DNA of 64,000 bases from Seonamhaeicola sediminis (GTDB taxonomy: Bacteria > Bacteroidota > Bacteroidia > Flavobacteriales > Flavobacteriaceae): NCBI RefSeq assembly GCF_004358095.2, contig NZ_SMZJ02000001.1, forward strand, positions 62,001 to 126,000, written 5' to 3'. The translations under genes and the position numbers were made by a program. Position 1 is the stretch's first letter. Every line of letters begins with the position of its first letter. A model generated the notes under the pieces. That model made no database searches. It was given only the letters and a program-made list of their open reading frames with translations, and had not been told where the DNA came from. Positions 34,215 through 56,534 of the stretch are shown here, piece after piece.

Positions 34215-35345
34215 TCAAAATTTTAAAATATCATGCTTTATTCTGCTATTATAATGAGAAAAGGTGAACTTTTCAACCACTGTATCAAAACTTTCTAACA
34301 TCCTTTTGTAATTTTCTTCAGAAAGGTTTAACATTGTATAAAGCATTGATATCAAAGCTTCATAAGTTACTTCATTTAATAAAAACCCATTATCGTTGTG
34401 TTTTATATAATGTCCAATAGCCGAAATATTGGACACAATGGGAATACATCCAAAATTCATAGCTTCAGCAATCACCTTGGGAAACCCTTCCGAAGCGGTA
34501 GTGGGTAATAAAAAAGCATGAGACTGTTTATAAATTTCAAACACCTCTTGCCGTGGTAAAGCACCATGAAACAGAACATGAAGGTTACCTTCATTGGCTA
34601 GCTGCTTAAAATATGTTGACTCCTCACCCTCTCCCACAAAATGAATGGTCCCGATTCGGGACACCAAATCAGCACTTAGACTATGAAACGCGCTTAATAT
34701 AGTTTCTACACCTTTTTCTCGTTCTAAACGCCCCACAAAGCAAAAGGTTATTTTACGTTCTAGGCTTTTATCTTGACGAATTTGTCTACCTAAAACAATA
34801 TCGGCGTCTGTTAAACAAGGATTCTCAAAACTCAGATGGTGTAAAGGCTGCTGCTCCCAATAGCCATTAATAGTAACGGTTCTTCTCTGTAGTTTTAGCA
34901 TCCAACGCTGTAGCCTATAACCTAATGGTGGTTGTAGCTGATTCCAATTACCAGCATATTTAAACCAGCCTTTCTGTTTTACAAAAACACTTAAATAGGG
35001 GATTAAAAAAACGCCTATACCTGTGGGGGTACGCAATTGAAAGCAATCCACGTCTCTTAAGGTTTTAGAAACTATTTGAATAATCTTTGGACTCTTCCAA
35101 ATAACCTCTAACTTATTTAAAAACCCTTTACCACCCACCGAAGGTATGGGAATAAAATGAACTTTATCTGAGATATATGGCAATGCACTGGCCGGAACCT
35201 CTGTATCATATAACATAGCTATATGGTACACTTCATCAAATATCGCTAATAAATGGTTTATCTCACTCACAGTGGCACCCCACCCTACCAAAGTACCATC
35301 TGGTCTTTTGTAATGTTCGGTATGTGAAATAATGGCTAACTTCAT
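34215..35345 (-). CDS. Glycosyltransferase family 4
   Basis: 376 aa with ATG start MKLAIISHTEHYKRPDG. N-terminal motif GWGATVSEINHL binds the acceptor side; the C-terminal half shows ITFCFVGRLEREKGVETIL (about 202-220) and the donor-site HAFLLPTTASEGFPKVIAEA. It retains the GT4 EX7E glutamates. It is followed closely by the O-antigen ligase-like gene. Its start is bounded by the repeat array that begins at 35401, so the gene needs a promoter inside or after that array. Confidence 0.9.
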   Translation of the reverse strand: MKLAIISHTEHYKRPDGTLVGWGATVSEINHLLAIFDEVYHIAMLYDTEVPASALPYISDKVHFIPIPSVGGKGFLNKLEVIWKSPKIIQIVSKTLRDVDCFQLRTPTGIGVFLIPYLSVFVKQKGWFKYAGNWNQLQPPLGYRLQRWMLKLQRRTVTINGYWEQQPLHHLSFENPCLTDADIVLGRQIRQDKSLERKITFCFVGRLEREKGVETILSAFHSLSADLVSRIGTIHFVGEGEESTYFKQLANEGNLHVLFHGALPRQEVFEIYKQSHAFLLPTTASEGFPKVIAEAMNFGCIPIVSNISAIGHYIKHNDNGFLLNEVTYEALISMLYTMLNLSEENYKRMLESFDTVVEKFTFSHYNSRIKHDILKF

Positions 35346-35400: not shown

Positions 35401-35481
35401 TGTCATTCAGAGCATTCCTGAAGGCAAATATATTTGCATTGAAAGTACCTTGCAAAGCAATAAAACGAAGTAAAGAATCTC
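35401..35481 (+). repeat. Palindromic repeat, copy A (long form)
   Basis: Plus orientation. The usual core is replaced by a longer insert containing GGCAAATATATTTGC, GTACCTTGC and AAAGCAA. It matches copy L (36442-36523) at the other end of the array. Confidence 0.75.
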
Positions 35482-35484
35482 CAT

Positions 35485-35522
35485 TGTCATTCAGAGTGAA
35501 GCAAAGCGAAACGAAGAATCTC
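35485..35522 (+). repeat. Palindromic repeat, copy B
   Basis: Plus orientation, TGTCATTCAGAG to GAAGAATCTC. With the following spacer and copy C it forms a unit duplicated at copies J-K. Confidence 0.8.
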
Positions 35523-35574
35523 TTCCAAAAAATCTAAACATAAATTCACATAACAAAATTGCACTCCATTTAAT

Positions 35575-35613
35575 GAGATTCTTCAGTCGAACAAGTTCTC
35601 CTTCTGAATGACA
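35575..35613 (-). repeat. Palindromic repeat, copy C
   Basis: Minus orientation. The apical hairpin is GAAC-AA-GTTC inside the outer TTCAG/CTGAA pair. Confidence 0.8.
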
Positions 35614-35622
35614 TAGAACCGT

Positions 35623-35660
35623 TGTCATTCAGAGCGCAGTGCAACGAAGCGAAGAATCTC
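35623..35660 (+). repeat. Palindromic repeat, copy D
   Basis: Plus orientation, TGTCATTCAGAG to GAAGAATCTC, ending 27 bp before the GIY-YIG start codon. It is the likely left inner flank of the gene. Confidence 0.8.
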
Positions 35661-35686
35661 TTCTTTTTTTGTTTACATTTATATTA

Positions 35687-35992
35687 ATGAAAACAAAAGG
35701 CACTCACAATTACTATGTTTATATACTTACTAACAAAACTAAAACTGTATTGTATACAGGAGTAACCAATAACTTGAAAGAAAGACTATATCATCACAAC
35801 AACCCTTTACCATTCTCAAAATCATTTACCTCCAAATATAAATGCTTTTACCTGATTCATTTTGAACACTTTTTTGAAATTGATGACGGCATCAAAAGAG
35901 AAAAAGAAATTAAAGGTTGGAGTCGTGCCAAAAAAGAACAGCTCATTAATACATCAAATCCAGATTGGACGTTTTTGAATGATACCATTTAA
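35687..35992 (+). CDS. Small GIY-YIG endonuclease domain protein (UPF0213-like)
   Basis: 101 aa from the ATG at 35687; an open frame reaches 35639 through repeat DNA and is rejected. The GIY-YIG fold is complete: YYVYILTNKTKTVLYTGVTN supplies the two tyrosine motifs (YVY and YTG), LKERLYHHNN the catalytic Arg, and IDDGIKREKEIKGWSRAKKE the metal-binding Glu. The family includes single-strand-acting nucleases; most UPF0213 members have no known role. It is the only gene on the plus strand in this part of the locus and is hemmed in by palindromic repeats 27 bp upstream and 1 bp downstream, which suggests that gene and repeats move or work together. Confidence 0.9.
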   Translation: MKTKGTHNYYVYILTNKTKTVLYTGVTNNLKERLYHHNNPLPFSKSFTSKYKCFYLIHFEHFFEIDDGIKREKEIKGWSRAKKEQLINTSNPDWTFLNDTI

Positions 35993-36030
35993 AGATTCTT
36001 CAGTCGGCTAAAGCCTCCTTCTGAATGACA
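35993..36030 (-). repeat. Palindromic repeat, copy E
   Basis: Minus orientation, starting directly after the GIY-YIG stop codon. The apical hairpin is GGCT-AA-AGCC, a different sequence from copy C with pairing kept. Confidence 0.8.
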
Positions 36031-36039
36031 TAGAACCGT

Positions 36040-36077
36040 TGTCATTCAGAGTGTAGTACAACGAAACGAAGAATCTC
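36040..36077 (+). repeat. Palindromic repeat, copy F
   Basis: Plus orientation, 9 bp after copy E, TGTCATTCAGAG to GAAGAATCTC. Confidence 0.8.
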
Positions 36078-36131
36078 TTCTCAAAACCCTCTTCAATTAA
36101 TCTACGTACCTAAACCACGCAACAATTCAAT

Positions 36132-36166
36132 AGATTCTTCGGTCACTGCGTTCCCTCTGAATGACA
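36132..36166 (-). repeat. Palindromic repeat, copy G
   Basis: Minus orientation. The centre (GGTCACTGCGTTCCCTC) has no simple four-base hairpin, so it is a diverged copy. Confidence 0.7.
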
Positions 36167-36176
36167 TTAAACTATT

Positions 36177-36203
36177 ATCTTTCAGAGCAAAGCGAAGAAT
36201 CTC
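36177..36203 (+). repeat. Palindromic repeat, copy H (degenerate)
   Basis: Plus orientation with a damaged left end (TATCTTTCAGAG) and a shortened core. It ends GAAGAATCTC. Confidence 0.65.
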
Positions 36204-36254
36204 ATTCTTAAAACTTCCAGAAAAAATTGTATAAAAACAATACTCCAATCAATA

Positions 36255-36296
36255 AGATTCTTCAGTCGGTCGCAAACTCCCTCCTTCTGAATGACA
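36255..36296 (-). repeat. Palindromic repeat, copy I
   Basis: Minus orientation, AGATTCTTCAGTCGG to CTTCTGAATGACA, with a longer centre than the other copies. Confidence 0.75.
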
Positions 36297-36305
36297 TAGA
36301 ACCGT

Positions 36306-36343
36306 TGTCATTCTGAGTGCAGTATAACGAAACGAAGAATCTC
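36306..36343 (+). repeat. Palindromic repeat, copy J
   Basis: Plus orientation, TGTCATTCTGAG to GAAGAATCTC. It leads into the duplicated 94-bp segment. Confidence 0.8.
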
Positions 36344-36395
36344 TTCCAAAAAATCTAAACATAAATTCACATTACAAAGTTGCACTCCATTTAAT

Positions 36396-36434
36396 GAGAT
36401 TCTTCAGTCGAACAAGTTCTCCTTCTGAATGACA
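36396..36434 (-). repeat. Palindromic repeat, copy K
   Basis: Minus orientation. It is identical to copy C over 39 bp, including the GAAC-AA-GTTC hairpin, and shares its upstream spacer with two differences. Confidence 0.85.
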
Positions 36435-36441
36435 TTGTGAT

Positions 36442-36523
36442 TGTCATTCTGAGCATTACTGAAAGGCAAATATATATGCATTGAAAGTACCTTGCAAAGC
36501 AATACATTGGAGTGAAGAATCTC
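36442..36523 (+). repeat. Palindromic repeat, copy L (long form)
   Basis: Plus orientation, the counterpart of copy A with the same kind of insert (GGCAAATATATATGC, GTACCTTGC). It ends 5 bp before the stop of the GT4 gene at 36529. Confidence 0.75.
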
Positions 36524-36528
36524 CCTTA

Positions 36529-37641
36529 CTACAAATCTTCAATAACATCTATATATTGCTTTATAATCTCTTCCCAACGGTGTTGATTTGCCCATATTGA
36601 TGCTTGTTTACTAAATGTTTCTTTATTACTTAAAATGGTTTCAATCGCATTTATAAAAGCGCTCGTATCCATAGCGTCGATCAATACACCTGACTTTTCG
36701 TTTTGCACCGCATCTTCAATTCCATTATTTTTCGATCCAATAGCTGGAATCCCCAACGTATTGGCTTCAATAATAGCAATACCAAATCCTTCCACATCTC
36801 CAGTTTCAGTTTCCGTACTCAACATCACAAAAATATCGGAAGTTCCAACTAAACTTATTAAGTCGTTATGAGACACCCTGCCATGAAAGGTCACATGGTT
36901 TTCCACACCTAATGTCTTGGCTTTCTGCAAACAATTTTCTTGCTCAGTTGGAATGCCCACACAATGGTAATGGATTTGAGGATACGTTTTAATCAGCATA
37001 GGCAAATGTTCAATGACCTGTATTTGCCCTTTCCGTTCAGTGACATTCCCAACCGTGATAAGTTTTGGAGCCCCTTTTATTGAAATATTTGACGCTGCTT
37101 TTGTATTCCATTTTGTCTCATCAACACCATTAGGGATTACCGTTGTCTTTCTTTGAAATGTCTGTTTTAATAACAATTTGGTATAAGACGATACCGCTAT
37201 AATCTTGGGAAAACGTATTAGAGACAGATTAACCATGAGCTTTACAGGAAATGATTTAAAATTAACCTCTGTACCATGAACAACCGCTAAATAATGTCTT
37301 CTGTAAAACCAGCTAAACCAACTAACACTCCACAACGAAAATTTACCAGAAGCAATAATCACACAATGGTTTTTTAAAGCCTTCCTAAGGAGCAGCAGCC
37401 GTTTTATATACATTAACAACCTAGGCCTCTTTACCCAAACTCTGAGTACCTCAAACGGTAATTCTTTATCAAAGCGCTTTTCTTCATGTCCTGATGTAGA
37501 CCGAGCATCAGTAATCACAGAAACCTCAAAACCGTGGCTATTAAGCTGATATGCCAAATTATAGGCATGATTGCCAATACCTCCTGGTTGTGGTGGAAAT
37601 TCGGAACTAACAATCAATAGGCTTTTGCTGTTCTTTTTCAT
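36529..37641 (-). CDS. Glycosyltransferase family 4
   Basis: 370 aa. The acceptor-side loop is SSEFPPQPGGIGNHAYNLA (12-30), a common GT4 motif. The C-terminal half shows LITVGNVTERKGQIQVIEHL and the donor block with GFGIAIIEANTLGIPAIG. TVIPNGVDETKW marks the domain linker. The protein is soluble and probably acts at the cytoplasmic face on the growing lipid-linked unit. Its ATG overlaps the stop of the upstream GT2 gene by 4 bp, showing coupled translation. Confidence 0.92.
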   Translation of the reverse strand: MKKNSKSLLIVSSEFPPQPGGIGNHAYNLAYQLNSHGFEVSVITDARSTSGHEEKRFDKELPFEVLRVWVKRPRLLMYIKRLLLLRKALKNHCVIIASGKFSLWSVSWFSWFYRRHYLAVVHGTEVNFKSFPVKLMVNLSLIRFPKIIAVSSYTKLLLKQTFQRKTTVIPNGVDETKWNTKAASNISIKGAPKLITVGNVTERKGQIQVIEHLPMLIKTYPQIHYHCVGIPTEQENCLQKAKTLGVENHVTFHGRVSHNDLISLVGTSDIFVMLSTETETGDVEGFGIAIIEANTLGIPAIGSKNNGIEDAVQNEKSGVLIDAMDTSAFINAIETILSNKETFSKQASIWANQHRWEEIIKQYIDVIEDL

Positions 37642-39084: not shown

Positions 39085-39124
39085 AGATGTCTCGTCGCTC
39101 GTCCCTACCTCTGTCGACATGACA
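39085..39124. repeat. Degenerate palindromic repeat
   Basis: GATGTC and GACATGAC border a CTCGTCGCTCGTC centre. It is the leftmost of several REP-like elements in the 598-bp gap between 38970 and 39567, which otherwise holds no gene. Confidence 0.5.
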
Positions 39125-44173: not shown

Positions 44174-44231
44174 TGTCATTCTGAGTGTGGTACGCGATCC
44201 ACTGAAATTGTCGAAGTGTGCGTAAGAATCT
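44174..44231 (+). repeat. Palindromic repeat, copy M
   Basis: Plus orientation, TGTCATTCTGAG to AAGAATCT, with an enlarged centre (about 58 bp). It begins the repeat cluster in the 519-bp gap between 44039 and 44557, which holds no gene. Confidence 0.65.
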
Positions 44232-44256
44232 ATTAAATGATTCTCCTAAACAAAAT

Positions 44257-44295
44257 AGATTCTTCAGTCGAACAAAGTTCTCCTTCTGAATGACA
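44257..44295 (-). repeat. Palindromic repeat, copy N
   Basis: Minus orientation with a GAAC-AAA-GTTC hairpin, one loop base more than copies C and K. Confidence 0.8.
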
Positions 44296-44342
44296 AACGT
44301 CTTATTATTTAACATAGAATCGAATAAAGCAAAACGCTCTCT

Positions 44343-44380
44343 TGTCATTCAGAGTGCAGTGAAACAAAGCGAAGAATCTC
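44343..44380 (+). repeat. Palindromic repeat, copy O
   Basis: Plus orientation, TGTCATTCAGAG to GAAGAATCTC. Confidence 0.8.
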
Positions 44381-44477
44381 TTAAATATTTTAACCAATGA
44401 AGTTTTTTCGTTCTTTTAATGCTAAGGGATTGCTACGTCGCTAGCTTCCCTATGTACCCACATAATGACAGAACGTG

Positions 44478-44505
44478 TGTCATTCAGAGTGCAGGTATGA
44501 ATCTC
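44478..44505 (+). repeat. Palindromic repeat, copy P (shortened)
   Basis: Plus orientation with a short centre, TGTCATTCAGAG to GAATCTC. Confidence 0.65.
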
Positions 44506-44518
44506 TTATCTTGTATCA

Positions 44519-44556
44519 AGATTCTTCAGTCGGCTTAAGCCTTCTCCTGAATGACA
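44519..44556 (-). repeat. Palindromic repeat, copy Q
   Basis: Minus orientation. The hairpin GGCT-TA-AGCC is a perfect palindrome and a variant of copy E. It ends 1 bp before the stop of the GT4 gene at 44558. Confidence 0.8.
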
Positions 44557-56497: not shown

Positions 56498-56534
56498 TGT
56501 CATTCAGACCCCGATGTATCGGGGGAAGAATCTC
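56498..56534 (+). repeat. Type 1 palindromic repeat with perfect hairpin
   Basis: TGTCATTCAGA, hairpin CCCCGAT-GT-ATCGGGG (56509-56524), then GAAGAATCTC. A 7-bp exact stem replaces the four-base stems of other copies. It lies in the 338-bp gene-free gap 56408-56745. Confidence 0.85.

Follow-up and report, generated by a model that had tools for sequence, protein, structure and literature searches.

Small GIY-YIG nuclease genes as candidate partners of CGTC/TGTC-tagged hairpins in apparently mobile cassettes of Seonamhaeicola sediminis and other bacteria

The locus described here lies in a 64,000-nucleotide stretch of the 3.54-Mb genome of Seonamhaeicola sediminis (contig C1, positions 62001-126000), hereafter the window. 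It comprises a gene for a 101-residue GIY-YIG nuclease and twelve copies of a short repeat around it (Table 1). The gene is an intact open reading frame (ORF) on the + strand, with its ATG at 35687 and its stop codon at 35990-35992, and the flanking genes (34215-35345 and 36529-37641) are both on the - strand, as the first-pass annotation of this DNA had described. That annotation also placed the gene between two repeats, which holds: the left copy ends 26 bp before the ATG, and the right copy abuts the stop codon. Its count of twelve copies stands; the alternation of their orientations does not extend to the first two, which are both +. Related copies, which it reported in four other gaps, are found in three.

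The nuclease matches the Pfam GIY-YIG family PF01541 (E 4.6e-16), and the Pfam scan of the 101-residue protein gave no DNA-binding domain besides GIY-YIG. In a profile search against the PDB, the top entries are 1zg2 (1.6e-16) and 1ywl (1.5e-12), both UPF0213 proteins, with Slx1 next. The structural model predicted by AlphaFold2 has a pLDDT (predicted local distance difference test) of 92.4, and the best Foldseek match to it is again 1zg2 (E 1.2e-4), followed by Slx1 entries at weak E values of 0.01-0.1, some with titles naming branched and 5' flap DNA. Specifically, residues Y12, Y23, G25, R33, H37 and E72 are invariant in an alignment of 35 sequences, and the invariant Y, R, H and E are presumably the usual GIY-YIG active-site residues. 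Sequence, predicted fold and conserved residues agree in assigning the protein to the UPF0213/Slx1-like GIY-YIG nucleases. Public annotation of the family reads 'GIY-YIG nuclease family protein' or 'excinuclease ABC subunit C'. Bacterial stand-alone GIY-YIG proteins have been placed with Slx1 (Dunin-Horkawicz et al. 2006, PMC1564403; this and the other papers cited below enter by part of their content); the strings 'palindrom' and 'hairpin' are absent from the text of that paper. The nuclease thus shares fold and sequence with UPF0213/Slx1 proteins, and differs in its setting, the members not being described in that source as repeat-flanked mobile cassettes.

Single copies of the window repeat are weakly palindromic (-0.4 to -2.2 kcal/mol for five copies folded with DNA parameters), while two head-to-head pairs fold at -15.2 and -15.7 kcal/mol; the first-pass description of the repeats as palindromic applies mainly to such pairs. 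We scanned the genome with the pattern TGTCATTCNGAR-N(10-30)-GAAGAATCT and obtained 21 matches (15 forward, 6 reverse) and none with the reversed control pattern, which excludes chance for the window repeat. Eleven of the matches are in the window, one is at C1:141410, and nine are at C34:494243-495107. The last group consists of nine direct copies at a spacing of ~70-180 bp, and none of the genome's GIY-YIG matches lies nearby.

To relate hairpins to genes, we took 80 loci by protein similarity alone (the best 80 of at least 551 confirmed; 13 are labelled non-Bacteroidota, some of which may be binning errors), with 635 ORFs from these loci, each no closer than 2 kb, as the control. A hairpin was defined widely, as GTC, a perfect stem of at least 5 bp, a loop of 3-34 bases and then C, or as the common form in these loci, the skeleton TGTC-ATNNN-GA-loop-GA-N'N'N'AT-CT, with at least 2 of its 3 core pairs. 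By this definition, 70/80 loci and 117/635 control ORFs have a hairpin within 300 bp, and 49/80 loci and 10/635 control ORFs have hairpins on both sides (Fisher p 4e-35 and 3e-44, respectively, in tests that ignore relatedness). The comparison of homologues with random genes that the first-pass annotation had proposed therefore comes out in favour of an association. The result is similar with a narrower, earlier hairpin definition (67/80 on any side, 48/80 on both) and after thinning to below 70% protein identity (45/54 loci with a hairpin). A second set comprises 26 of 30 loci from the window's bacterial family, including one in the genome of the window itself; four were dropped at contig ends, and the only DNA shared with the first set is a dropped locus, L135. 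All 26 loci of this set have a hairpin, 21 of them on both sides.

Within 250 bp of the genes, the top enriched 6-mer is TGTCAT/ATGACA, present in 67/80 loci against 13.5 expected from 2044 control windows. In the 80 loci, 5-bp stems show their strongest enrichment in the head.tail context GTC.C (206 against 10.5 expected); for 6- and 7-bp stems AGA.T ranks first, which we read as the ends of head-to-head pairs. In the second set, GTC.C is top for 5-, 6- and 7-bp stems. Hairpins differ among loci, and each locus tends toward a stem of its own. A common 5-base stem is found in the nearest hairpins to the left and right of the gene in 29 of the 49 two-sided loci (5.7 expected), and the nearest heads point outward in 29 of the 49 (12.3 if random). 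Two inverted hairpins flanking the gene are therefore a common arrangement, not a universal one. The pairing of this gene family with this hairpin class is well supported by these sequence comparisons.

An alternative is that repeats and small genes merely accumulate as passengers in insertion-tolerant intergenic regions. The gap holding the window array is indeed an insertion hot spot, since two further GIY-YIG ORFs, each with an apparently broken N-terminus, and other hairpins occupy the orthologous gap in G150, and control intergenic DNA has hairpins too. Their density is nevertheless 4.71/kb beside the genes against 0.64/kb in that control DNA, they face each other with a left-right match above chance, and the cassettes described below move as units with fixed ends. 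We consider passive accumulation improbable.

Skeleton matches were picked without requiring complementarity of NNN, and the cores are nonetheless fully complementary in 150/169 matches near genes, where 15 different cores occur, and in 91/112 matches far from them. The density of complementary skeletons is 3.20/kb near genes and 0.072/kb far from them; the reversed sequence contains one skeleton match, and 55/80 real loci have one within 300 bp. Covariation was assessed in the 25-base class, represented in the 80 loci by 24 distinct sequences; its AT and GA columns are fixed by the way the matches were chosen. In this class 97.2% of cells are paired, against never more than 54% in slid versions, and two-sided changes affect 34 cells, where shuffles give 13.0 +- 2.6; neither the count of pairs showing such a change (3) nor that of pair types rises above the shuffles. 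In the aligned sequences, then, the stem bases covary. A criterion of long perfect stems was abandoned as too strict, as most Bacteroidota hairpins were missed by it.

Inside the GA, an extra pair closes a triloop, which is GNA in 24/26 distinct 25-base sequences from all loci and in 42/70 of the 27-base class, giving tips such as GCGNAGC, ACGNAGT and similar. DNA mini-hairpins that combine a GNA or GNNA loop with two or more G-C pairs, e.g. d(GCGAAGC), are reported to be extraordinarily stable, with a melting temperature of 78 C (PMC4686876). The energy model gives the GNA-tipped hairpins only -1.9 kcal/mol. The GNA tips and tandem G-A pairs may point to a hairpin that is selected as single-stranded DNA.

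Comparison with related genomes suggests that gene and hairpins move together. The window cassette is alike in the congener G153 from outer hairpin end to outer hairpin end, with an alignment one base longer on the left and unrelated flanks. The cassette of L004, another small GIY-YIG locus of the window's genome, is absent from the orthologous site in 6/6 congeners searched; G154 has a hairpin pair without a gene there, and the other five have no clear hairpin. Relatives of the L004 cassette occur elsewhere between inverted hairpins (an identical pair in L223 and in L221, two mismatches in L224), and similar genes carry different stems within one genus. At L007, also of the window's genome, G154 is the sole congener with both flanks matched, the right one weakly (E 5e-4), and it lacks the cassette. 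In Azospirillum lipoferum (L239), the gene lies between two hairpin pairs within the sufB-sufC gap, and the same gap in A. ramasamyi, A. oryzae and strain B510 has neither the cassette nor a clear hairpin. Because homology stops at the hairpin ends, flanks are unrelated and empty sites exist, hairpin-gene-hairpin units appear to be mobile cassettes, a conclusion that is well supported by the aligned sequences.

The sufB-sufC gap has also been occupied in other ways. Shinella PSBB067 (L249) and A. lipoferum have different GIY-YIG cassettes with different hairpins between these genes, and Sphingomonas parapaucimobilis (L250) has a DUF559 gene in the gap, with palindromes alongside.

Mobility of the unit can be read in a second way: the GIY-YIG gene may be a homing parasite that cuts hairpins and copies itself in, the hairpins being spread by something else, so that the repeats would be landing sites of the gene and not its progeny. 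In Sphingobium MM7A and MM15 the arrangement is hairpin-gene-hairpin, with an identical inverted pair in MM7A, and the same site in TYG64 holds exactly one hairpin, the outer arms of which equal the outer ends of the MM7A/MM15 unit; TYG74 has a near-identical hairpin, so that the single-hairpin form is seen in two Sphingobium plasmids. This speaks for homing, and it recalls free-standing GIY-YIG homing endonuclease genes, which likewise sit in a target whose halves flank the gene. The Sphingobium comparison is not polarised, however: TYG72 and the outgroup TYG65 have other palindromes at the site. Furthermore, the empty sites of Azospirillum and of five of the six L004 congeners lack a clear hairpin in which the gene could have landed. 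The window nuclease also differs from homing genes in that its target would be a dispersed hairpin class and not one conserved gene site, and in that the protein has ~100 residues with no further DNA-binding domain by Pfam. That similar genes have different stems in one genus, with the stem barely tracking the protein, suits a gene homing into whatever is present. We regard homing as a serious contender that is nonetheless rather doubtful.

The hairpins match, in sequence, a group of repetitive extragenic palindromes (REPs). Di Nocera et al. 2013 (PMC3733652) divide REPs between two superfamilies, GTAG and CGTC; those of the CGTC superfamily, found in five phyla including Bacteroidetes, have CGTC, TGTC or CCTC at one end, a stem starting with AT and mostly a CCA tail. 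The survey names S. meliloti and A. lipoferum and equates CGTC-1 with the dRS3 repeat of Neisseriae. According to its text as available, CGTC REPs 'apparently lack a dedicated transposase', other transposase classes showing few fortuitous associations; their mobilisation is left open, one view offered being that the families are going toward extinction. Our hairpins share with CGTC REPs the CGTC/TGTC/CCTC head, the AT at the start of the stem, a short unpaired C-rich tail and head-to-head dimers, and the feet agree in the window (TGTC) as well as in the GTC.C context. They differ in having a partner gene, none being reported for CGTC REPs in that source, and in the main Bacteroidota form, which has a 5-bp variable stem, tandem GA, a GNA-type tip and a CT tail. 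The hairpins may thus be said to match the CGTC/TGTC-tagged superfamily and to extend it.

The comparison also covered 16 loci in named records, taken from 32 records with a match (the remainder include several near-duplicates by name and size, and several of the records are listed as plasmids yet are chromosome-sized). They cover S. meliloti, Sinorhizobium, Rhizobium, Neorhizobium, Shinella, Sphingobium, Azospirillum, Novosphingobium, Neisseria, Aeromonas, Photobacterium, Planktothrix and Spirosoma. A strict CGTC/CCTC-type REP is near the gene in 13/16 loci and on both sides in 10, at a density of 3.81/kb near the gene and 0.34/kb elsewhere. In particular, the S. meliloti, A. lipoferum and Neisseria records have hairpins beside a GIY-YIG gene, with the strict motif on one side only in S. 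meliloti. The loci that miss the strict motif are those of Spirosoma and Planktothrix, which by eye have the Bacteroidota-type form, and Novosphingobium, which has other palindromes. An 8-9 bp stem starting from AT with a loop of 4-5 bases, the form typical of CGTC REPs, is found in most alphaproteobacterial, Neisseria and Aeromonas loci, unlike the common Bacteroidota form; the tail is CC in most named-record loci, CCA in L004, L221, L223 and L224, and CT in the common Bacteroidota form. The UPF0213/Slx1-like nuclease is thus a strong candidate for the partner of CGTC REPs in rhizobia, Azospirillum, Sphingobium and Neisseria as well.

The arrangement is parallel to that of GTAG REPs and their REP-associated tyrosine transposases (RAYTs), whose genes reportedly lie without exception between a pair of inverted REPs (Nunvar et al. 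2010, PMC2817692), and the likeness to REPs with a TnpA-type transposase drawn in the first-pass annotation is apt. Both systems have a small hairpin with an unpaired, conserved 5' foot, inverted copies flanking a gene for a small DNA-cutting enzyme, and additional solo copies and head-to-head pairs in gaps. They differ in the enzyme, GIY-YIG (PF01541) here and a Y1 tyrosine transposase (PF01797) in RAYTs, and in the foot, GTC here and GTAG in RAYT REPs.

A survey of 149 genomes of the window's bacterial family compared the two enzymes. The nuclease matches 110 of them at E <= 1e-6, with 0-10 matches per genome, some with internal stops, and the skeleton pattern has 935 matches against 74 for the reversed control. 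Genomes with at least ten pattern matches make up 24/110 of those with the gene and 0/39 of those without (p 6e-4); counting strong protein matches only (E <= 1e-20), the figures are 20/89 and 4/60 (p 0.012), and for at least three pattern matches 41/89 and 9/60 (p 8e-5). The Spearman correlation of gene count with pattern matches is 0.34, and 0.31 with Y1 held constant; that of Y1 with pattern matches is 0.17, and 0.09 when gene count is controlled for. Genomes with and without a Y1 match do not differ in having at least ten pattern matches (11/58 with, 13/91 without) and differ weakly in having at least one (45/58 and 54/91, p 0.03). Among Y1 loci of the same family (30 fetched, 8 dropped as short or cut by a contig end), a hairpin is found at 1/22 by the wide definition and at 1/30 by the strict motif. 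In G036, a 148-residue Y1 frame ends ~110 bp from a hairpin pair, which we take as a single case. A canonical RAYT/IS200 element as the driver in the window's genome was rejected, as there are 0 PF01797 matches in it. That no other enzyme is tied to these repeats, here or in the accessible part of the REP survey (PMC3733652), speaks against hairpins spread by something other than the nuclease.

The same survey bears on a housekeeping role, in which the nuclease would clear cruciforms formed by repeats and selection would keep the gene beside them. A Slx1-like fold acting on branched DNA would suit such a role; the patchy presence, the empty orthologous sites, the internal stops and the movement of cassettes look selfish instead, and we judge it very improbable.

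Taken together, these data lead us to propose, tentatively and at somewhat short of an even chance, that CGTC/TGTC-tagged REP hairpins have a dedicated partner in a small, stand-alone Slx1-like GIY-YIG nuclease, the two forming one mobile cassette in several phyla. It is about equally plausible, and no firmer, that GIY-YIG nucleases are the missing enzymes of CGTC REPs and constitute, alongside RAYT/GTAG, a second and independent way of mobilising REPs. The nuclease likely acts on the hairpins. It would recognise the fold and the feet (5' GTC and 3' C or CT) and not the stem sequence, in Bacteroidota through the tandem GA and the GNA mini-hairpin tip, leaving the stem free to drift. It would cut the hairpin or cruciform once the DNA is single-stranded or extruded, and repair of the break would use another copy as template. 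Gene-less hairpin pairs and single hairpins, the latter as non-autonomous derivatives, could spread in this way along with whole cassettes, and local arrays such as the twelve window copies could grow. A hydrolytic, structure-selective nuclease would thereby stand in place of a tyrosine transposase. The nicking and spreading of repeats suggested in the first-pass annotation would fit this scheme, and its link between nuclease and repeats is borne out beyond chance by cassettes that appear to move with their hairpins; the repeats also differ between loci.

Several observations weigh against a dedicated partnership. GIY-YIG enzymes hydrolyse DNA, and we know of no strand-transfer step for them. 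The two flanking repeats of the window cassette are unlike each other in the middle. By the wide definition 10/80 loci have no hairpin, and by this same definition only 4/7 small GIY-YIG genes of the window's genome pass (L001, L003 and L006 fail). Stem similarity follows protein identity feebly over 70 loci (rho 0.057, with 34/1000 permutations as high), rising clearly only above 70% identity; such weak tracking agrees with recognition by fold and feet, and also with homing into whatever hairpins are present. Having any pattern match at all is independent of the gene (76/110 genomes with it, 23/39 without; p 0.32). G094 has 123 pattern matches and five PF01541 matches, all in frames of 288-690 residues, and so comes part of the way to the repeat-rich genome entirely without the gene that the first-pass annotation had named as counterevidence. 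Likewise, G036 has 30 pattern matches and, as its only small GIY-YIG gene, one of a tRNA-linked type, and G093, G070, G066 and G051 have 9, 5, 5 and 3 pattern matches with no profile match at E <= 1e-6 (three of the five in G066 look like chance). Pattern matches outnumbering genes in rich genomes, and G094 with many and no small gene, are what landing sites spread independently of the gene would give. By eye, no target-site duplication is evident in the flanks of L004, L221, L223, L224 and L254, where the congener gaps are too divergent. Finally, landing in REPs needs no dedicated partnership: REPs are targets of some insertion sequences, S. meliloti and probably Neisseria included (PMC1525189, in the part consulted), which also favours homing.

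In the openly licensed literature searched, we found no report linking GIY-YIG to REPs, and the available part of a paper on miniature inverted-repeat transposable elements (PMC9769881) has no mention of GIY. If the proposed partnership is true, it defines a class of mobile elements of ~400 bp with members in Bacteroidota, Cyanobacteria and the Alpha-, Beta- and Gammaproteobacteria, suggests a role for a common family (110/149 genomes of one bacterial family), and explains odd locations of such genes, e.g. between sufB and sufC. The 2013 survey gave an enzyme to one of the two REP superfamilies (PMC3733652, in its accessible portion), and a partner gene makes mobilisation of the other testable: the present data supply a candidate enzyme and substrate, pairs of related strains, and natural controls in the form of other stems and empty sites.

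Table 1. Nuclease gene, cassette and repeat copies in the window
Feature	Position	Strand	Remark
GIY-YIG nuclease gene, UPF0213/Slx1-like, 101 residues	35687-35992	+	Assigned by Pfam, profile search, predicted model and Foldseek
Apparent mobile cassette, hairpin-gene-inverted hairpin	35623-36030	+	Homology to the G153 copy stops at the outer hairpin ends
Left flanking repeat of cassette	35623-35660	+	TGTC head outward
Right flanking repeat of cassette	35993-36030	-	Abuts the stop codon; same ends, different middle
Long repeat copy, outer left	35401-35483	+	
Repeat copy	35485-35522	+	
Repeat copy	35575-35613	-	Head-to-head with the 35623 copy
Repeat copy	36040-36077	+	Head-to-head with the 35993 copy
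Repeat copy	36132-36166	-	
Repeat copy	about 36176-36203	+	Degenerate head
Repeat copy	36255-36296	-	
Repeat copy	36306-36343	+	
Repeat copy	36396-36434	-	
Long repeat copy, outer right	36442-36523	+	
Solo hairpin	39086-39124	-	Same class, different stem
Group of several repeat copies	44174-44556		No nuclease gene
Solo hairpin	56498-56533	+	Same class

Of the 12 PF01541 matches in the window's genome, seven fall in small ORFs, with open frames of 99-126 residues. The full window repeat is absent at the other six small genes, with one tail-like match inside L004. This absence was dropped as a refutation, as the flanks hold hairpins of this class that keep the feet and differ in the stem. Specifically, the left hairpin of L004 is GTC-ATTCCGCA-CTTGA-TGCGGAAT-CC and the right one is similar and inverted, with another stem; L007 has GTC-ATTTC...GAAAT-C, L002 has GTC-ACCCTGAA...TTCAGGGT-C, and L001 has repeats GTCAGGGTGAGC..., recognised by eye only. 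In L002 (gene 1429-1749) and in G150:C4:197846-198076, a C-terminal DPETSSG is encoded by the flanking hairpin, the reading frame continuing into the repeat.

A second kind of small GIY-YIG gene is linked to tRNA genes. L003 and L006 (G000:C48:7292-10878) are two tandem genes after tRNA-Val, and L314 (G036:C32:16500-18500) is a single gene beside tRNA-Pro; partial tRNA copies lie alongside all three, a pattern suggestive of insertion at tRNA genes that duplicates part of the target.

In G094, the pattern matches are distributed over many contigs, many of them as inverted pairs ~72 bp apart or as arrays with a 114-bp period. Two RAYT-like genes of G094 are accompanied by a different repeat, CCGCACGAT...ATCGTGCGGTAGCG, and the 7 kb around them contain no GTC hairpin. 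In three Flavobacterium species, apparently at one locus (L066, L080 and L088), 3, 4 and 6 hairpins lie downstream of the gene, as inverted pairs at a period of ~148 bp in L080 and L088, which provides a natural series for array growth.

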